From a bacterium (GTDB lineage: Bacteria > Patescibacteriota > Microgenomatia > UBA1400 > PJMF01), in NCBI GenBank assembly GCA_017431625.1, contig JAFRKQ010000023.1, positions 1 to 41,523 of the forward strand: a stretch of 41,523 nucleotides of DNA. The letters run 5' to 3'. The notes below the pieces were generated by a model, which had not been told where the DNA came from, searched no databases, and was given only the letters and a program-made list of their open reading frames with translations. The position numbers and the translations under genes are program-made. Positions 3,271 to 31,471 of this stretch are shown here, piece by piece. The first letter of the stretch is position 1, and the number at the start of each line of letters is the position of its first letter.

Positions 3271-4701
3271 TTAGTCTTGTACCCTTGGGTCGTAGACTAG
3301 TTGTACCTCATCTGCGGCTGCTGCCAACACTTGTAGTTTATTGCTACGCGTGACCTTGTCGAGTTTGAGCAATTCTTCTCGCGACATGAATGGACGACGG
3401 TTTACCTCTAAAGTCTCAGGATCCAGGCTGACAGCGTCTATTTTTACCAAGTCTTCAAAATCATCGTCAGTTCCCGCCTGTGTCGTGCCAATCAACCAAG
3501 CATCATCGCTGGTCATGCCCAAAACGTATTCACCGCCTATGCCTGCCTCGGTATTTGTCTGGGCCAAAGTGTCTACCTGAAAAGACCAGGGCATAAAGGA
3601 ATATATTTGCGTGGAGCTACCATTGCCATAGCCACCATCGCGCAGGAAGAAAATGGTGAGGCGATCACGGTCTTTTTGGCTCATTATGATCTCGACTCCA
3701 TTGGCCGACATTGTCGCTGGCAAGATTTGTATTGGTGGCTCTTGGGTGTCAGCCAAAAGATAAACATTGGCGTTGGCCATAAACTCTGATCCGACCACGA
3801 TATATAAATATTTATCTATCAAGCGCAATTGTGAAATATAATAGTAATGGCCAAAATCCACGACTAGTTGTTCGGAGGCTGTGGGATCGGCACTCTGGCG
3901 GCGTATCAGTTTACTGTCAATAAAGTAAAAATCACTATCATCAAAATGAATGTATTCGTTACTACTGGTGGCCGCTTGGCTAGCTTCCAAGAGATTATTA
4001 AAGTCAATATTTGCCTCAATGACAGGACTGTCAATATCAGGCAGTAGTGAAGGAGTCGAGCTTACCAACCCAACTGGTTGAGGCAAAGGCGGAAAAGTTG
4101 TTGCTAGGTCATCCCAGAGTTGGCGGAGTTCATTGGCAGCCGGGGAAATATTTACATAGCCATCACTATTAAGATCAATGGCGTCATCTTGCCAGTTCCA
4201 AGCGGTGATGTCAGACCATTGAGAAGTCGGCATGCCAATATTGCCACTATTATAAAGGTCATCATCCACTTTTTCAATGACGTTGCGCCAGTGTATGATC
4301 TGCGCCGGTGACAATTGGCCCACGACCGCATCGTAGTAAAGCGACTCATCAGTCTGATCATCGCCAACAAAATATGCCTCTATTTTGCCATTGTTATAGA
4401 TATTATAGTCGTAATGAGTATTGTGATCAGAAACCTCAAAAAAGTAATTATCAGGGTTAGATGTCATCGTGTAATAAAAATATATTTGTTGCCAAAAGGT
4501 AGCCCCAATGACCAAAATTAACCCCAATATCACTATTAAACCCAGTTGCCAATGTTTGGTCGCGGACGAAGTTCCATCAGCCGGTGAGGAGACAGTTTGT
4601 GGTTGAGCCGTGGTCACTGTCGCTGGGGTCTCAACATTAGCCAGAGTTTCACTATCTTTTGGCAAGGAATCTTGAGCAATCTGCTGATGTTTTTTTGACA
4701 T
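3271..4701 (-). CDS. Single-pass membrane protein with large outer domain, unknown function
   Basis: 476 residues. A Thr/Pro/Ser-rich cytoplasmic N-terminus (1-50) precedes one strong membrane segment (about 53-72, LGLIVILGLILVIGATF). The remaining 400 residues are probably extracytoplasmic. They are rich in Asp, Tyr and Ser; the C-terminal half shows repeated beta-strand-like segments (for example FYFIDSKLIRRQ, LYIVVGSEFM, IYSFMPWSFQV) that could form a beta-propeller, but I see no diagnostic motif. The start is ATG 4701 with TATAAT at 4712-4707, five bases away and with no Shine-Dalgarno sequence, so the mRNA is probably leaderless. Confidence 0.75.
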   Translation of the reverse strand: MSKKHQQIAQDSLPKDSETLANVETPATVTTAQPQTVSSPADGTSSATKHWQLGLIVILGLILVIGATFWQQIYFYYTMTSNPDNYFFEVSDHNTHYDYNIYNNGKIEAYFVGDDQTDESLYYDAVVGQLSPAQIIHWRNVIEKVDDDLYNSGNIGMPTSQWSDITAWNWQDDAIDLNSDGYVNISPAANELRQLWDDLATTFPPLPQPVGLVSSTPSLLPDIDSPVIEANIDFNNLLEASQAATSSNEYIHFDDSDFYFIDSKLIRRQSADPTASEQLVVDFGHYYYISQLRLIDKYLYIVVGSEFMANANVYLLADTQEPPIQILPATMSANGVEIIMSQKDRDRLTIFFLRDGGYGNGSSTQIYSFMPWSFQVDTLAQTNTEAGIGGEYVLGMTSDDAWLIGTTQAGTDDDFEDLVKIDAVSLDPETLEVNRRPFMSREELLKLDKVTRSNKLQVLAAAADEVQLVYDPRVQD

Positions 4702-4935: not shown

Positions 4936-6708
4936 CTATGATCTCTTGCGCAGCGCGAACGGGATGACTGCAAAAAGCAATGCACTGTAATTCATGCTAT
5001 TGCAGCCGCCACCGCCGCCACCTGAACCTGAGACGCCGCCTTCGGAGCCGCCATTGGTGCCACCATTACTATTGCCTCTACTGTTGAGATATATCGTCAT
5101 GGTGCCAATGACATAGCCGTCGGAGGTTGTCAGTACGTTCCCTTCAAGCGTGCAACGATTCTCGTCATAGCAGTACTTGAAGATGTTCGTGCCCACCAGG
5201 TGCAACTTGTTGACGCCGGCAAAAAAGACAACTTCCACTTTCCCGTCACTCTGCACTGTGATTTTGATGGGTGCAGGTGAGGCTTTTTCGAGATTGTCGG
5301 TGGAGTTGAAAAGCTGTCCGTTGCTGTTGTCGATATCTGCCTTTTTCGCGACGATAATCTCATCTTCGGTCTCACTATTGACAAAATTTGGTTCAGTTAC
5401 CTGGCCATTTTTGCGAGTGAGAATAATGATGTCGGAACTGGTCGGCGTGGATATTTCCCTGCCAGTTGCTGCTTGATTGGGAACAATGACTTTCCACGAA
5501 CCGTAGTCGCCGGTGGTTGAAAAGAAGGTGTTCAGATTTGCTGATGTGAGCTGAACACCGTTGATTTTTTTCCAATACTCAGCATTCGGCCACCAAGTCA
5601 TTTTTTCCTTTACGTTACCGGTGGTGTAGGTTTCTCCAGCCTCGAGCGTTTTATTGCTCTGCACAGAGACACCATCCCAGGCTTCGTGGATTGTAATTGT
5701 CACGAGCGCTGGTACTTCCACCAAAACCTCACCGTAATTGCCTTCGCTCAGGATTGTGAAATACTTCGCCAAATCGCCTTTGGAAACTAATTCTTCGGCT
5801 TTATATGTCTTTGGTTCGGTATTTTCTTCACCTTCGCCGTTTTCGCCTTCACCGGGATTGCTACCGCCATTGTCGGAACCGCTTTCTGGGGTATGGACTT
5901 TAAACCACAATGTGGCCGTCTGTCCCTTCCCATAAACGGTCGCTCCTGCGGTGTGATTTTCGCCATCCTGGACTTCGGTAAGCTCACCGCTAACAATAAA
6001 AGCAATGTCTTCTTTGAGCTCGACGACAGCACCACCATTACCGATATCGGCAGAGATGACTTTTTTGGCAACAGCGTCTAAAACCTGCTGTCTGGTCATG
6101 CTACTGATGTCAATAGAAGTGATTTGAGGTGTGCTACTGTCTTCGTCAGTGTTGACTGAGAACCACGCTGTAGCCGGCTGACCATTACAATTGACAGTGT
6201 CGCCTACGGTATATTCGGTTCCATCCTGAAGTCCAGTGAGCACTCCGCTGATCGTGATCTTTTTGCCAGTGACGAGTCTTCCCTTAACGCCGTAACCGCC
6301 CTCTAACATGTCGTCGGACACGTGGGCGAAGATCACATCGATGACTTCAGAGCGTTTGAGTTCACTAATGTCGACGGAAACAAAATCGCTGTCATCTGCG
6401 GGATCGGTGTTGGTGGAGAACCAAACTGTGGCTTCCTGCCCAGTGCCTTCGACTGTCTGTCCCGACTCATAATTGTTGCCGTCCTGAACGCTGGTGACTA
6501 CTCCTGCAACTATAAAACTTATGTTTGCCTTGAGTGTTCCTTTGACGCCATAGCCGTTTTCCAATGTGTCGTCGACAGTGTCAAAGATCGCATCGATGAC
6601 TTCTGAACGTTTCATGTCGCTGATGTCGATCTGAGCGGCGAATGCGGAGGTTGCGAAAAGAACTGCGAGCGCGAATACTACTACTACGAATAATTTGGTC
6701 TGTTTCAT
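4936..6708 (-). CDS. Secreted three-repeat surface protein with Gly/Cys C-terminal sorting-like signal
   Basis: 590 residues. A classical signal peptide (MKQTKLFVVVVFALAVLFAT..AFA, 1-25) is followed by three homologous units of about 85 residues starting near 26, 112 and 197. Each begins IDIS-type, then (K/R)(R/Q)(S/Q)EV(I/L)DA, and ends with VQDG...G(Q/E)xATxWF. An acidic Gly/Asn/Glu linker (about 285-305) and a C-terminal region of about 250 residues follow. The end is tripartite: a Gly run with Cys569, a hydrophobic stretch (YSALLFAVIPFAL) and basic RKRS. This organisation resembles Synerg-CTERM, MYXO-CTERM or GlyGly-CTERM sorting tails, so envelope anchoring is inferred. ATG 6708 has a GAAAGGAG Shine-Dalgarno site and a long leader. 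The C-terminal tail type is unusual for CPR and suggests transfer. Confidence 0.8.
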   Translation of the reverse strand: MKQTKLFVVVVFALAVLFATSAFAAQIDISDMKRSEVIDAIFDTVDDTLENGYGVKGTLKANISFIVAGVVTSVQDGNNYESGQTVEGTGQEATVWFSTNTDPADDSDFVSVDISELKRSEVIDVIFAHVSDDMLEGGYGVKGRLVTGKKITISGVLTGLQDGTEYTVGDTVNCNGQPATAWFSVNTDEDSSTPQITSIDISSMTRQQVLDAVAKKVISADIGNGGAVVELKEDIAFIVSGELTEVQDGENHTAGATVYGKGQTATLWFKVHTPESGSDNGGSNPGEGENGEGEENTEPKTYKAEELVSKGDLAKYFTILSEGNYGEVLVEVPALVTITIHEAWDGVSVQSNKTLEAGETYTTGNVKEKMTWWPNAEYWKKINGVQLTSANLNTFFSTTGDYGSWKVIVPNQAATGREISTPTSSDIIILTRKNGQVTEPNFVNSETEDEIIVAKKADIDNSNGQLFNSTDNLEKASPAPIKITVQSDGKVEVVFFAGVNKLHLVGTNIFKYCYDENRCTLEGNVLTTSDGYVIGTMTIYLNSRGNSNGGTNGGSEGGVSGSGGGGGGCNSMNYSALLFAVIPFALRKRS

Positions 6709-25057: not shown

Positions 25058-25879
25058 TTAGCGAACGAAAATTTTACTCAAAAGCCAAAAGAGTATGAAG
25101 ACAAATAAATTAACCAAAATGATTGCGGCTCCGGTACTGACGTTGTAGACATATGACAAATAAAGACCGATTATAAATGACAGCACGCCAATTGTGGCCG
25201 CACTGATAATCGTGGCACGAAAAGAGCGACACCACCACATCGCAGTTGTGGCGGGAAAAATAATAATACTACTGATGAGCATCACGCCCATCATGCGCAT
25301 ACCGATGACGATTGTCACGGCGGTCAAAATGGCGATGACATTGGTGTAGAGAGTCATATTGAGACCAGTGGCACGAGCAAAATCTTCATCAAAAGTTAGC
25401 AAAAAAAGTTTGCGGTAGTAGATGATAAATAAAACCAAAATGACGATACAGGCGGCCACACTCAGATAGACATCATTGGCCTGTATGGCGAGAATACTAC
25501 CAAACATAAAGCTGTGAGTATCGAGATTGAGACCAGGGGTCAATGAGGTGACGGCGACACCTAATGCCAAGGCAGAACTAGAGATTAAGGCAATCGCGCT
25601 GTCACTTTTGAGATGACTGTGGCGATCTAGCCGCAACAAAATAATCGCTGCCAGAGCGACACCAGGTATAGCGACATATAAGGGAGCAGTCAAGCCAAGG
25701 GCACTGGCCAGTGATACAATCCCAAAGCCCACGTGTGAGAGACCATCGCCAATCAGACTGTAACGCTTGAGGACCAAAATGACGCCCAAAAGAGAAGCAC
25801 ACAAACTCACCAGTATCCCCACGACAAAAGCCCGCTGGATAAAAGCGTGAGCCAGCATTTCCCACCACACCGCTAACAT
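25058..25879 (-). CDS. znuB: Metal ABC transporter permease (ZnuB/ABC-3 family)
   Basis: 273 residues with about eight membrane segments, the normal size for this family. It forms the membrane channel for divalent metal import. The family signatures include AFVVGILVSLCASLLGVILVLKRYSLIGDGLSHVGFG (about 15-50) and TVVIGMRMMGVMLISSIIIFPATTA in the central part. The ATG at 25879 has AAAGGAG five bases upstream inside the preceding ATPase gene, whose stop overlaps the start by seven bases. It is the last gene of the fur operon. Metal specificity cannot be read from the permease. Confidence 0.92.
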   Translation of the reverse strand: MLAVWWEMLAHAFIQRAFVVGILVSLCASLLGVILVLKRYSLIGDGLSHVGFGIVSLASALGLTAPLYVAIPGVALAAIILLRLDRHSHLKSDSAIALISSSALALGVAVTSLTPGLNLDTHSFMFGSILAIQANDVYLSVAACIVILVLFIIYYRKLFLLTFDEDFARATGLNMTLYTNVIAILTAVTIVIGMRMMGVMLISSIIIFPATTAMWWCRSFRATIISAATIGVLSFIIGLYLSYVYNVSTGAAIILVNLFVFILFWLLSKIFVR

Positions 25880-26562
25880 TTTACTCTCCTTTCGGTAAAG
25901 GTTGTGGCTGGCGCGTCAGCGACTATCCGACCAGACTCCAACTTGATAATTCGCGTGGCTATGGGCAAAAGGTGGGTAACGTCATGACCGACAATGATGA
26001 TTGTCGACTGGTGTTGGTGCCAATCCCGCATTAGGTCATAAAAATTTTTACTCGTGTGCTCATCAAGATGATTGGTGGGCTCGTCAAATAAATACACGCT
26101 CGCTTGACAACAAAGGGCCCGCGCGATCAGGGCGCGCTGTTGCTGACCACCAGATAGAGACAAAAAGCGTTCTCGCGCGAGCGCGGCGAGTCCCATTTTG
26201 TCAAGCATGATTTGGGCGCGAGCGCGATCGTCGTTGCTAGCAAAAATTCTTTGGGGGTGATTGCCAATTGTGCCCGACAAGACCACTTCCATGACGGTAG
26301 CCGGGAAATTACTAGCCAGATTATGCGTCTGGGCGACAAAACCAATTTGGCCAGTGACATCAATCGTGCCGGTGTAATTTTTGATCAAGCCTGCCAGACA
26401 CTTAAGCAAGCTACTTTTGCCCGAGCCATTGGCACCAATAATACCCACTAGCTCGCCTGGTAAAATTTGCAAATTAATGTTGTCAAGTACTTGGTGTTTG
26501 GGCACATAGCTCAGTGACAAATTGTTGACGCTGATGATGGGTGTAGGTAGTTTTTTGGTCAT
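25873..26562 (-). CDS. znuC: Metal ABC transporter ATPase (ZnuC-like)
   Basis: 229 residues. It hydrolyses ATP to drive metal uptake. Walker A GANGSGKS (43-50), Q-loop GFVAQTHN (about 73-80), signature LSGGQQQR (about 136-143), Walker B VYLFDEPTNHLD (about 156-167) and the switch His in VGHDV (about 186-190) are all intact. The start is ATG 26562, four bases after the stop of the binding-protein gene. A TATAAT sits there too, but it overlaps the stop and may be chance. Overlaps the permease gene by seven bases. Confidence 0.93.
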   Translation of the reverse strand: MTKKLPTPIISVNNLSLSYVPKHQVLDNINLQILPGELVGIIGANGSGKSSLLKCLAGLIKNYTGTIDVTGQIGFVAQTHNLASNFPATVMEVVLSGTIGNHPQRIFASNDDRARAQIMLDKMGLAALARERFLSLSGGQQQRALIARALCCQASVYLFDEPTNHLDEHTSKNFYDLMRDWHQHQSTIIIVGHDVTHLLPIATRIIKLESGRIVADAPATTFTERRVKC

Positions 26563-26566
26563 ACTA

Positions 26567-27550
26567 TTATAATAGAGCGGCTCGTAAAACGTCGAGATTG
26601 CGTGTCATCAGACTCACCCAAGTTTCGCCGCGGGCAAAATCATCCAAGCTAATATTATGCAAACTCTGGATTTGGCGGGGTGTGCAAGTACCCAGATCGC
26701 GACAGATAGTCTGTGCTAAGGTCCCGGGATTGAGCTCGAGGTATAAAACCACCGGGATGTCTTCAATCTGGACGCGTTTTTCGAGGGTGGCCAGCGTTTT
26801 GGCAGTAGGCTCGGACTCGCTACTGCAACCCGCGAAAACGGCACTCACTTTTAGGCCGTAATAGTTAATAAAATATTGCATGGGCATTTTGTCAGCAAAA
26901 ACTAAGCGGTCGCGTACCCGGGCAGTCACGAGTGCTTGTATCTGCTGATCGACAGTTTGGATTTGGTCAATGTAGTCACGCGCATTGGTTTGATAACGAT
27001 CGCAACTGGTGGGGTTTAAAGTGCACATTTCTGGTGTCAAAGTCTGTATCATCGCTATCGCATTGTCGGGCGCAGTCCAGATATGTTCATCAAAACCGCC
27101 CTCTGACTCGTCTTCGTCTTCGGGCTGCATATCGTCGATTTCTTGTTCTGGCTTGGTAGTGACAAAGTCTGAGATTTTAAGGACGCGCGCCGGCCGATGG
27201 TCGCTACTGGCCAAAATGCCATCAGCCCAATTTTCCATCGTGCCGCCGATGTAAACAAAAAGGTCTGCTTGCTGGACGGCGAGTATATCTTGGGGGGTGG
27301 GGTCAAAAGTGTGAGCGTCTTTGCCTGGGCCCAAAAGAAATTGCAAATTTACCTGCTCATCGTCGCCAATAATCGCGCGCAAAAAATCATAACTGGCAAA
27401 ATTACTAGCAACAACACTGAGACGTGGGGTGGTACCATTTGGTGGTGCGACCGGGATTGACCGGGGTTGGTGGCCATTGATAAGCACCAAAAGTCCGAGC
27501 AAAATCAAGACTGTGAGCAAACAACTAAAAAAAATTTTTTGGGGCCACAT
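26567..27550 (-). CDS. znuA: Metal ABC transporter substrate-binding protein (ZnuA/TroA family)
   Basis: 327 residues; captures divalent metal outside the membrane. An N-terminal membrane anchor (FFSCLLTVLILLGLLVLI) takes the place of a cleaved lipobox. Family motifs: VVASNFASYDFLRAIIGDD, first-ligand region PGKDAHTFDPTPQD, second-ligand DEHIWTAPDNA, then VFADKMPMQYFINYYGL and AGCSSESEPT. In classical ZnuA the third region begins with His; here it is Asp, as in a Firmicutes-type branch, so zinc, manganese or iron are all possible. The acidic stretch before DEHIW (MQPEDEDESEGGFDEHI) replaces the usual His-rich loop. Start is ATG 27550 behind AAAGG, sharing one base with the fur stop; an upstream in-frame codon at 27583 would lie inside fur. 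Confidence 0.88.
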   Translation of the reverse strand: MWPQKIFFSCLLTVLILLGLLVLINGHQPRSIPVAPPNGTTPRLSVVASNFASYDFLRAIIGDDEQVNLQFLLGPGKDAHTFDPTPQDILAVQQADLFVYIGGTMENWADGILASSDHRPARVLKISDFVTTKPEQEIDDMQPEDEDESEGGFDEHIWTAPDNAIAMIQTLTPEMCTLNPTSCDRYQTNARDYIDQIQTVDQQIQALVTARVRDRLVFADKMPMQYFINYYGLKVSAVFAGCSSESEPTAKTLATLEKRVQIEDIPVVLYLELNPGTLAQTICRDLGTCTPRQIQSLHNISLDDFARGETWVSLMTRNLDVLRAALL

Positions 27551-27945
27551 TAGCAGCCTTTCCGGCGACGACAGTGACGACAAATGCCGGCGATCGTGGC
27601 CTCATTGTTGATAATAAAACCGTGATCCATTGCCAAATGGCGGGCAATGGCGAGAAGTTCTGGACACTCAAGGTGAATGATTTGGTGACAATGATCACAC
27701 TGAAAGTGAAAATGTGAATGACAATCGGGTGCGGCGTATTGGTAGTATTTGGTGCGCTCTCTGGTGTCGGTACGGACAAGACCTAATTCCTCTAGGTCAT
27801 TGAGTCGGCGATGAACAGAGGCGATGCCCACTTTATAGCCGTCGTCTGCCAACGCTTCACAGATTTGTTGACAACTAAAAAATTCATGAGCGTGAGTGTA
27901 TAAAAAATCATCAATAATTTGCTTAGTTTTGGTTTGGTAGTTCAT
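27550..27945 (-). CDS. fur: Fur-family metal-dependent repressor
   Basis: 131 residues, slightly short for Fur (about 140-150). It binds DNA as a dimer when loaded with metal. The N-terminal winged helix has SVHRRLNDLEELGLVRTD (about 43-60). The metal region is HSHFHFQCDHC (76-86), and a second Cys pair, CRHC (122-125), completes a structural zinc site. Start is ATG 27945: a TTG at 28005 would lie upstream of the promoter. The operator overlaps the promoter, so autoregulation is very likely. The gene leads the znuACB-like operon (fur stop and next ATG share a base). Fur against Zur cannot be decided from the protein, but the box is of Fur type. Confidence 0.9.
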   Translation of the reverse strand: MNYQTKTKQIIDDFLYTHAHEFFSCQQICEALADDGYKVGIASVHRRLNDLEELGLVRTDTRERTKYYQYAAPDCHSHFHFQCDHCHQIIHLECPELLAIARHLAMDHGFIINNEATIAGICRHCRRRKGC

Positions 27946-27957
27946 ACATGTTTTCTC

Positions 27958-27980
27958 AAATTGATAATGATTATCAATTT
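27958..27980. promoter_or_regulatory. Fur box over the fur operon promoter
   Basis: The core TGATAATGATTATCA matches the 7-1-7 Fur consensus TGATAATNATTATCA exactly and lies within a perfect 23-bp palindrome (11-base arms, central G). It overlaps the -10 and transcription start region of the fur promoter, as an autorepressor site should. Confidence 0.88.
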
Positions 27981-28070: not shown

Positions 28071-28099
28071 TTGAATTTGATAATGACTATCAAATTCAA
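28071..28099. promoter_or_regulatory. Second Fur-box-like palindrome, overlapping a stop codon
   Basis: Twelve-base arms TTGAATTTGATA and TATCAAATTCAA flank ATGAC; the core TGATAATGACTATCA differs from the Fur consensus by one base. It overlaps the stop codon (28096-28098) of the DUF3592-like gene and lies about 65 bp upstream of the fur -35. It may be an auxiliary operator or an mRNA 3' hairpin. Confidence 0.65.
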
Positions 28100-28664: not shown

Positions 28665-28698
28665 TCCCCAAAAGTGGCCTATTGACCACTTTTGGGGA
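28665..28698. repeat. Perfect 13-bp inverted repeat
   Basis: TCCCCAAAAGTGG (28665-28677), eight-base loop, CCACTTTTGGGGA (28686-28698). It lies between the DUF3592 promoter and the 33-bp repeat array. It could be an operator or a hairpin that insulates the array; no U-tract follows on either strand. Confidence 0.6.
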
Positions 28699-28723
28699 AA
28701 ACAATGATCCAATAGTGAAAAAC

Positions 28724-29017
28724 TTGCATTTTTGTTGGCAAAGTGGGCATAAAAAGTTGCAATTTCAATCTAAGAGTGGGCATAAAAAGTTGCAATTTCA
28801 ATCTAAGAGTGGGCATAAAAAGTTGCAATTTCAATCTAAAAGTGGGCATAAAAAGTTGCAGATTGTTTATCTTATGCCTGTAAATAGCTATCGATAACTT
28901 TATGGCTATTAATTAAAAAAAAGTTGCATTTTATCTATAATTGTGAGCAGAAAAATTGTCTTTTTTAATGTAAAAATCACCATAAAAACTTGCAATTTTA
29001 TAAAAAAGTGATATAAT
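28724..29017 (+). repeat. Phased 33-bp repeat array ending in the ATPase promoter
   Basis: Units starting with TTGCA or TTGTC at 28724, 28757, 28790, 28823 and 28856, then after a 69-base diverged stretch at 28925, 28957 and 28990. Units at 28757, 28790 and 28823 are nearly identical, with TTGCAATTTCAATCTAA then AGTGGGCATAAAAAG. The last unit, TTGCAATTT...AAGTGATATAAT, includes the extended -10 of the ATPase gene (29012-29017), with TTGCAA in the -35 position. A 216-base open frame across the repeats is not taken as a gene. Confidence 0.85.
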
Positions 29018-29024
29018 AGTCAGT

Positions 29025-30341
29025 ATGTTGCAACGCAAGATCACTAAAGTACTACAAGCCTGGAAACAAGAAACTCATAAACCGTGTCTTTTAATCAGGG
29101 GAGCCAGGCAAGTGGGCAAGACTTTCATCGTTGATGAGTTTGCTCGTGCCAATTATCCCCACTATATTTATATCAATTTTGAACTATCACCAGAGCATAA
29201 AGAAATCTTTCGTCAGGGAAATTTGGATTTTGACACTATTCGCATTCAACTTGAATCATTTTTCCCTGATGTCAAAATTGTCCGCGGTCAGACACTATTG
29301 TTTTTGGATGAAATCCAAGCATGCCCCCAAGCCCGCACGGCTCTCAAAAGTTTAGCCCTTGACGGTACTTTGGATGTTATTGCCTCAGGTTCGCTTCTGG
29401 GACTGTATTATAAAGATGTTTCTTCGTATCCAGTTGGCTATGAACGAGCCCTAGACATGTATCCTTTAGACTTTGAGGAATACTTATGGGCTATTGGTGT
29501 ATCGACGCAAGTGATTAACAACTTGCATCGCCACTTTATTTTGGGACAAGCCTTACCCACAGCTCTAATCAAAAAAATGAGTGAGTATTTCCGCGATTAT
29601 ATCCTCGTAGGTGGTATGCCGGCAGCAGTAAATGAATTTATTCGGCAAAAAAGTTTTGTCAGTGTGCGTACTATCCAAACACAAATTTTGGAAGCTTACA
29701 AAACGGATGTTGTTAAATATGCCTCCACTCCAGACAAGGGTAAAATTATCAAAACGTTTGCAAGTATTCCGGCTCAATTGGCGCGTAAAAATAAAAAGTT
29801 TCTCTTTTCACAAATTGACGCTCAGGATGATCACGCGAGTGAGCGAAAGTACATTTCCGCCCTTTTGTGGTTGCAGGATGCGGGGATTATTAACTATTGT
29901 TACAATTTGTCAGAACCAGCTTTACCTTTGGCAGTTAACAAAAGACTTGAGGCTTACAAGATCTATTTGCGTGACACTGGTCTGCTTTTGGCAATGTTAG
30001 ATCGTGATATCAGTCAGTCGATTCTTCATTATAATTGGACAGTTAATGAAGGGATGATTTTGGAAAATATTTTCGCCCAAGAAATTATCAGTCGTTACGG
30101 CGAACTGACTTACTTTGAACGGAAAAGTCGACTAGAAATTGATTTTATTATGAATATCAATGGCATAGTAACGGCGATAGAAGTTAAATCCGGTCACAAT
30201 CGTCAAGCGAAGTCTTTGCAATCAATCAAGGATAATTATCCTAGTGTTCGGCGTTGGATCAAGTTTGAGCCAGACATAAATCTAACGCGTGATGAAAAAG
30301 ATATTGAGCATTATCCTTTATTTATGGCGATGTTTTTGTAG
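29025..30341 (+). CDS. AAA_14/DUF4143 ATPase
   Basis: 438 residues. An N-terminal AAA+ ATPase domain has Walker A GARQVGKT (26-33) and Walker B LLFLDEIQ (91-98), with sensor-like DVIASGSLLG (about 114-123). The C-terminal DUF4143 region carries a PD-(D/E)XK-like nuclease pattern: FERKSRLEIDFI (about 364-375) and AIEVKSG (about 384-390). Family members are common in bacteria and archaea, often several per genome, and their role is unsettled; links with DNA processing or toxin-like functions have been suggested. TGATATAAT is seven bases before ATG 29025 and no Shine-Dalgarno sequence is present. The repeat array upstream points to specific regulation. Codon use is A/T-rich. Confidence 0.92.
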   Translation: MLQRKITKVLQAWKQETHKPCLLIRGARQVGKTFIVDEFARANYPHYIYINFELSPEHKEIFRQGNLDFDTIRIQLESFFPDVKIVRGQTLLFLDEIQACPQARTALKSLALDGTLDVIASGSLLGLYYKDVSSYPVGYERALDMYPLDFEEYLWAIGVSTQVINNLHRHFILGQALPTALIKKMSEYFRDYILVGGMPAAVNEFIRQKSFVSVRTIQTQILEAYKTDVVKYASTPDKGKIIKTFASIPAQLARKNKKFLFSQIDAQDDHASERKYISALLWLQDAGIINYCYNLSEPALPLAVNKRLEAYKIYLRDTGLLLAMLDRDISQSILHYNWTVNEGMILENIFAQEIISRYGELTYFERKSRLEIDFIMNINGIVTAIEVKSGHNRQAKSLQSIKDNYPSVRRWIKFEPDINLTRDEKDIEHYPLFMAMFL

Positions 30342-30397: not shown

Positions 30398-30426
30398 GTC
30401 AATTTGATAATGACTATCAAATTGAC
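30398..30426. promoter_or_regulatory. Third Fur-box-like palindrome, between convergent genes
   Basis: Twelve-base arms GTCAATTTGATA and TATCAAATTGAC around ATGAC. The core is identical to the one at 28071. It lies 57 bases after the ATPase stop and before the terminator of the convergent C39-like gene, where no promoter is needed. CTTTTGCC follows on the plus strand, so it may act as a hairpin terminator. Confidence 0.65.
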
Positions 30427-31432: not shown

Positions 31433-31471
31433 CTTTCTCCAATTTGATAATGATTATCAAATTGGAGAAAG
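31433..31471. promoter_or_regulatory. Fourth Fur-box palindrome, 19-bp perfect arms
   Basis: Arms CTTTCTCCAATTTGATAAT (31433-31451) and its exact complement (31453-31471) around one G; the core TGATAATGATTATCA matches the Fur consensus exactly. It lies in the divergent region between the C39-like gene (minus) and the 31572 gene (plus), 15 bases before the latter's -35. Confidence 0.8.

Follow-up and report, generated by a model that had tools for sequence, protein, structure and literature searches.

PDC-S01 (COG1373), the family to which the protein studied here belongs, is described in the accessible text of the publications that cover it as a single-gene defence candidate proposed by association, with no mention of an array. 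Its 29,494 bacterial and 9,986 archaeal copies (about 39,500) make it the fourth most common defence-annotated system in prokaryotes, and experimental validation is still pending for most PDCs, according to PMC12988326. In the portions of the open-access literature on the family that are available, we found no mention of a phased cognate array for PDC-S01/DUF4143.

Orc1/Cdc6 and DnaA initiators and plasmid iterons are examples of AAA+ and winged-helix proteins on direct repeats, which is the arrangement proposed here. In contrast to origin repeats and iterons, the array described below stands at a promoter, no replicon was seen, and the period is 32 to 34 bp (or 23 bp). MalT and the other STAND proteins, like CED-4 and the NLRs, may have in common with the ATPase studied here a related nucleotide-binding core and a winged helix, and MalT assembles on repeated promoter sites. 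Unlike STAND and NLR proteins, the ATPase has no recognised LRR, TPR or LuxR-type part, it has a PD-(D/E)XK-like end, and its paralogues have private DNA words. Operator-based control of defence genes, as proposed here, is also exemplified by RptR, CapW/BrxR and the restriction C-proteins. Those regulators are dedicated small repressors, whereas the putative regulator here is an ATPase-nuclease with its own array. A built-in control switch of this kind seems to be undescribed.

The stretch of DNA that was analysed, referred to as the window, comprises 41,523 nucleotides of a genome of 1.14 Mb in 32 contigs that is 96% complete. Positions 29025 to 30341 of the forward strand encode a protein of 438 amino acids that the earlier note had called an AAA_14/DUF4143 ATPase. 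This assignment was borne out, with Pfam PF13173 (AAA_14) and PF13635 (DUF4143) both above the cut-off and a match of residues 1 to 437 to PADLOC PDLC04786 (PDC-S01; E = 2.8e-133). The protein has the P-loop GARQVGK, the Walker B motif LDEIQ, and the PD-(D/E)XK-type residues E347, E371, D373, E386 and K388. The part encoding DUF4143 (residues 227 to 390; 29703 to 30194, forward strand) includes a winged-helix-like region and the start of the PD-(D/E)XK fold. Walker residues K32, D95 and E96 are present in 84 of 84 aligned sequences, as are E347 and K388; E386 is found in 83, E371 in 81, and D373 in 72, with Glu in the other 12. The nearest PDB folds to an AlphaFold2 model built on this 84-sequence alignment (mean pLDDT 95) are the archaeal ATPases PABY2304 (2qen, Z 16.7) and SSO1545 (2fna, Z 15.9), the closest solved folds, with only residues 1 to 326 of the window ATPase aligned. 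We know of no reported DNA array for PABY2304 or SSO1545. Further fold matches, with high rmsd, were CED-4 and plant NLRs (Z about 13 to 14) and Orc/Cdc6 (Z about 11); MalT (8bob) was also among the matches, and a shared fold shows no function. A sequence search for solved relatives found none.

The region directly 5' of the ATPase gene contains the phased 33-bp array of TTGCA units that the earlier note had reported. TTGCA starts at 28724, 28757, 28790, 28823, 28856, 28924 and 28990, forming five units at 33-bp steps and two degenerate units that run into the ATPase promoter. Four units, all on the forward strand, have the identical 20-mer AGTGGGCATAAAAAGTTGCA (28742 to 28761, 28775 to 28794, 28808 to 28827, and 28841 to 28860). 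In register with these, 33 bp 5' of the first perfect unit, is a degenerate upstream unit (28709 to 28728, forward strand, with TTGCA at 28724). Downstream on the same strand are the degenerate unit AAAAAAAAGTTGCA (28909 to 28928, with TTGCA at 28924) and, four steps of about 33.5 bp past the unit at 28841, the promoter-proximal unit CATAAAAACTTGCA (28975 to 28994), which overlaps the -35 element. The earlier note had placed further units at 28925, 28957 and 28990; the last was found there, the first actually starts at 28924, and the one at 28957, where the sequence is TTGTC, is weak or absent. TRF assigned positions 28740 to 28860 a period of 33, 3.7 copies, 97% matches and a score of 228, with 77 for the runner-up array in the window. 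The lag-33 score for the 330 bp 5' of the gene was 109, compared with a maximum of 24 in 2000 shuffles and with scores of 26 or less everywhere else in the window.

The last unit was also claimed to be the promoter of the ATPase gene, and a sigma-70-type promoter is indeed predicted there from its match to the consensus (28990 to 29017, forward strand). It consists of TTGCAA at 28990 to 28995, a 16-bp spacer, and the extended -10 TGATATAAT (TATAAT at 29012 to 29017). The -10 ends seven bases 5' of the ATG at 29025, and therefore the transcript might be leaderless. A perfect 13-bp inverted repeat, TCCCCAAAAGTGG/CCACTTTTGGGGA, lies directly 5' of the array at 28665 to 28698, and its AAAAGTGG is like the left part of an array unit (AAAAGTGGGCAT).

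More than a dozen AAA_14 genes are present in the window's genome, and six belong to the same subfamily as the window gene (31 to 36% identity to it). In all six, the top repeat lag in the 330 bp upstream was exactly 33 among 106 lags tested, with harmonics at 66 and often also at 99. The words largely differ among the six. The word is CATAAAAA(G/C)TTGCA in the window, CATTTTGTGAAAAA on contig C7, CATTTCGTGAAAAA on C24, AAAAGTGTGTAAA on C11, GGGATTTTGGGCAAA on C10, and CAAAAAACTCCTACCAAAAAGTAGTG on C2; the most alike are those of the closest pair, C7 and C24, whose proteins are 52% identical. No further copy of AGTGGGCATAAAAAGTTGCA was found in the genome even when 3 mismatches were allowed, no second array of the window word was found in the genome or the window, and the word had zero exact matches in viral contigs. 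A site for a host-wide regulator was ruled out, because the paralogue words mostly differ and the window word is unique in the genome. One DUF4143 member of this genome, from another subfamily, falls outside the 33-bp pattern, with a lag of 39 to 40.

The same arrangement is found far outside this genome. The homologue set consisted of the 80 best matches from GTDB species genomes, a non-random sample whose loci are not independent. The sources were Clostridia, Bacilli, Bacteroidia, Treponema, Desulfovibrio, Bifidobacterium, Coriobacteria and Verrucomicrobia, as well as archaea (Methanocorpusculum, Methanomethylophilaceae, Methanocalculus and others). The top lag was 32 to 34 bp for 62 of the 77 homologues with enough upstream DNA versus 15 of 444 neighbouring ORFs at the same loci (Fisher P about 4e-51, for best-match, non-independent loci). 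A chain finder detected arrays in 65 of 86 cases versus 0 of 172 shuffles, with spacings of 33 (80), 32 (18) and 34 bp (7). Three or four units is the usual size among the homologues, and in 64 of 74 arrays no more than 70 bp separate the end of the last unit from the start codon. Homologues in plasmid and phage records likewise have phased repeats, and a clear array is absent in about a fifth of the homologues. Two genomes of the same phylum have the same pattern, including the word AGTGGTCGGAAAAACTTGCAATTT, which is near the window word. Related AAAA(G/C)TTGCA words accompany a Clostridia homologue (61% identity), a Bifidobacterium homologue and one from the same phylum. The spacing is thus conserved over very large distances, and recent amplification, which the earlier note had named alongside selection as likely, is not supported as the whole story. 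Exact phasing on one face of the helix was not upheld either, as spacings of 32, 33 and 34 bp are all found and 23 bp is the period in other DUF4143 subfamilies. A coding repeat (33 bp being 11 codons) was ruled out because spacings of 32 and 34 bp occur too.

Our claim is confined to the DUF4143 subfamily whose members start M(K/L)RK...L..WK, because others show 23-bp arrays, a lag of 39 to 40, or no array. For example, in a Bifidobacterium genome with 45 DUF4143 genes, the members of the window's subfamily have 32- to 33-bp arrays (one of them weak), whereas genes of the other subfamilies mostly have arrays with a 23-bp period, as long as about ten units and each with a private word; such arrays were found at ten loci of this genome. 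The 23-bp arrays of other subfamilies are mainly in Bifidobacterium. In other genomes, other DUF4143 subfamilies have a period of 23 or of 31 to 33 bp or no array, and several subfamilies are without any. Therefore, the period seems to be tied to the protein subfamily. Some genomes contain 20 to 45 genes of the family. Another DUF4143 gene, Thermus TT_P0211, is up 6.6-fold in HB27 with the plasmid compared with HB27 without it.

Word and protein vary together. Across 74 loci with arrays, the similarity of words in the same orientation climbs with protein identity, from a mean of 0.26 at less than 28% identity to 0.41 at more than 50%, and none of 2000 permutations in a Mantel test equalled this association. 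In the reverse orientation, word similarity is flat against protein identity. In a single-copy control the rise was confined to the word, with the spacer within the unit and the DNA 60 bp upstream both flat. These results indicate constraint and polarity in the word, which is more than inherited flanking DNA.

Array and gene also move as one. In plasmids of Bacteroides (Bacteroidales), the flanks on both sides match records that hold a HipA operon instead, and the exchanged block starts just 5' of the first unit and ends just past the stop codon (junctions at 3865/3866 and 5287 of locus L239). Vibrio plasmids that are about 97% identical include versions of the array without a 62-bp stretch, about two units. 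Some Vibrio plasmid copies have only one unit, and thus a multi-unit array is not always needed. An E. coli homologue for empty-site mapping was not found by DNA similarity. The array is located where an operator would be expected, at the ATPase's own promoter, and its co-inheritance with the ATPase is strongly supported. That the array belongs to the ATPase appears about as certain as comparative evidence permits.

The earlier note had suggested that the ATPase might bind its own array. Strong indirect support comes from the arrays of all six paralogues, from the link across phyla and in both domains, and from the way in which the word tracks the protein; binding itself is a prediction from these comparisons. 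It is probable that the ATPase is the reader and that it regulates through the array. The note had looked to the PD-(D/E)XK part for binding. The winged-helix region is at least as good a candidate for reading DNA. A sliding-window correlation of residues with the word gave weak peaks only, at residues 281 to 300 (the wing), 117 to 136, and 389 to 404.

The position of the array relative to the promoter was evaluated in 65 arrays with a -10 within one mismatch, a set that includes archaeal loci and in which -10 calls in AT-rich DNA are uncertain. In 34 arrays the last unit overlaps the -35 or -10, in 20 it is located at the -10 or past it, and in 11 it is fully 5' of the -35. The window array was scored by its last perfect unit and is therefore counted among the 11, although its degenerate last unit overlaps the -35. 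The C7 ATPase is also among the 11, with its last copy 5' of the -35 in an activator-like position, and the C24 arrangement and the promoters of the C7 Fic genes are similar. The geometry favours repression in most members, and activation may apply in some.

Arrays with the same word are also found before other genes. A genome search with the C7/C24 word CATTTYGTGAAAAA, allowing up to one mismatch, gave 20 matches, most of them in these arrays, versus a single match when the pattern was reversed. Apart from those at the two ATPase promoters, CATTTYGTGAAAAA arrays are located directly 3' of both ATPases and at C7:10557-10669. On C7, same-word arrays stand 5' of two genes of the Fic family, and the distances to the -10 elements are similar; the second Fic protein matches PDC-S72 (E = 3.7e-122). 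The C2 word recurs 5' of a WecG glycosyltransferase gene. A second copy of the C11 array lies downstream (113 bp, 95% identical), and beyond it come a different array and the gene of a ParE-family toxin. At other homologue loci, same-word arrays stand 5' of T5orf172 (PDC-S57) and a type I restriction subunit, of an MNT-HEPN pair, and of another AAA_14 gene. The control ORFs that had a lag of 32 to 34 bp and did not share the ATPase upstream region were mostly such effector genes or second AAA_14 ATPases. Of the six genomic members of the subfamily, four have a 3' array copy that is 85 to 95% identical, and orphan arrays with no gene behind them occur downstream on C24 and at C11:73576. The earlier note had named two observations that would speak against its claim, orthologous loci without the repeats and the same repeats scattered with no link to the ATPase gene. 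Both are mostly contradicted, as orthologues carry the repeats and those away from the ATPase are same-word copies, mostly before toxin, defence or further ATPase genes, with a few orphans.

Several further features of these loci were observed. The different array before the ParE-family toxin gene on C11 (array and gene in locus L252, 4640 to 4770 and 5089 to 5436) has a 33-bp period and the word GGGGAAAAKCTGCA, which resembles the words of two other loci; it adjoins no cognate ATPase. At 6211 to 6609 of the same locus are two short adjacent ORFs with similar ends, the second of which matches CdiA_C (PF18451). A reverse transcriptase (RVT_1; L249:1770-2867) is encoded directly 5' of the C7 ATPase, and its PADLOC assignment is RT, with top scores to unassigned RT and DRT-like models. 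At one homologue locus, direct repeats resembling an integration scar flank the cassette, formed by part of a tRNA-like sequence 5' of the ATPase and by tRNA genes 3' of it, and at four others direct repeats of 33 to 176 bp flank the ATPase cassettes, some of them outside the array.

The reading that we favour, with a probability of roughly 60%, is that the array is a cognate operator on which the ATPase binds cooperatively, repressing its own promoter and the toxin and defence genes to which the array has been copied. The ATPase, with its AAA+ core, winged-helix-like region and PD-(D/E)XK domain, would read a directional word of about 20 bp, and the period of 32 to 34 bp, about three turns of DNA, would allow several protomers to assemble side by side. 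This assembly would cover the promoter-proximal unit over the -35 and -10, keeping expression low and self-limited, until the ATP state or an infection-related signal released or remodelled it. Copying of the array before neighbouring genes (Fic, MNT-HEPN, T5orf172/restriction, other ATPases) would bring those genes under the same switch. Word and protein change together, and therefore many paralogues could share one cell with little crosstalk. A broader and more tentative proposal is that one of the most abundant prokaryotic candidate defence genes is a self-contained, paralogue-private switch, an ATPase-nuclease with its own phased operator that can enlist toxin and restriction genes through array copies at their promoters, with many orthogonal switches coexisting in a cell.

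Other functions for the array can be considered. An ATPase that assembles on the array as MalT does might recruit RNA polymerase and activate its own gene, giving, after a trigger, a positive-feedback burst of the ATPase and linked toxins. The array just 5' of the -35 at the C7 ATPase and at both of its putative Fic targets would suit such a mechanism, as would the upstream layout in 11 of 65 arrays and the presence of MalT among the fold matches. However, 54 of 65 arrays have their last copy over the -35 or -10 or past it, where it would block the polymerase, and the -10 elements are frequently near consensus; auto-activation appears unlikely. Somewhat less likely still is that the ATPase-nuclease is kept inactive on the array and that disturbed occupancy or replication, as in phage infection, frees or activates it to cut DNA, with any promoter effect secondary. 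The conserved PD-(D/E)XK-type residues and the standing of the family as a defence candidate are compatible with this, and arrays can far exceed the needs of repression, reaching about ten 23-bp units in another subfamily. It fits poorly with arrays that consistently sit at promoters and are copied to the promoters of other genes, and the nuclease activity is itself a prediction.

It is also possible that cassettes move via the arrays, so that array-gene-array is an integration product and solo arrays are excision scars. The highly identical 3' copies, the orphan arrays, the direct repeats that flank cassettes at other loci, and the patchy distribution with exchange as a block could all be understood in this way. 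Yet the window cassette has no second array, the Bacteroides plasmid junction is just outside the array at a site that held a HipA operon, no recombinase is encoded, and recombination needs neither a fixed period of 32 to 34 bp nor promoter overlap; we regard it as improbable. The least probable alternative, by a further step, is an RNA mechanism like that of type III toxin-antitoxin systems such as ToxIN, in which the ATPase would be held by antitoxin RNA units transcribed from the repeats. The tandem arrangement, a similar repeat size and the position directly 5' of a protein gene recall such systems, as do the units that in some cases follow the -10. Nevertheless, in a consensus scan the best promoter of the window and of most homologues is at the last unit, where the array ends or past it, rather than before it, and the same array stands before unrelated genes. 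A CRISPR array does not fit either, as repetition extends to the spacer parts of the unit, which are also preserved between duplicated arrays.

The conserved array that follows the protein provides a first concrete handle on PDC-S01. From it one can predict the DNA that each member targets, the protein that reads this DNA, and the genes so controlled (Fic, HEPN, T5orf172, restriction). These predictions are open to gel-shift and reporter tests, regulon prediction becomes a pattern search, and the family might be a source of many orthogonal DNA-binding switches.

The window also contains four copies of a Fur/Zur-box-like palindrome, TTTGATAATGAYTATCAAA, at 27960 to 27978, 28076 to 28094, 30403 to 30421, and 31443 to 31461 (chance expectation, 0.03). 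They are found around ZnuABC-type genes (25058 to 27583) and a C39-like peptidase gene, and they probably mark a zinc regulon. Two identical copies, those at 28076 and 30403, lie on either side of a DUF3592 gene together with the ATPase cassette.
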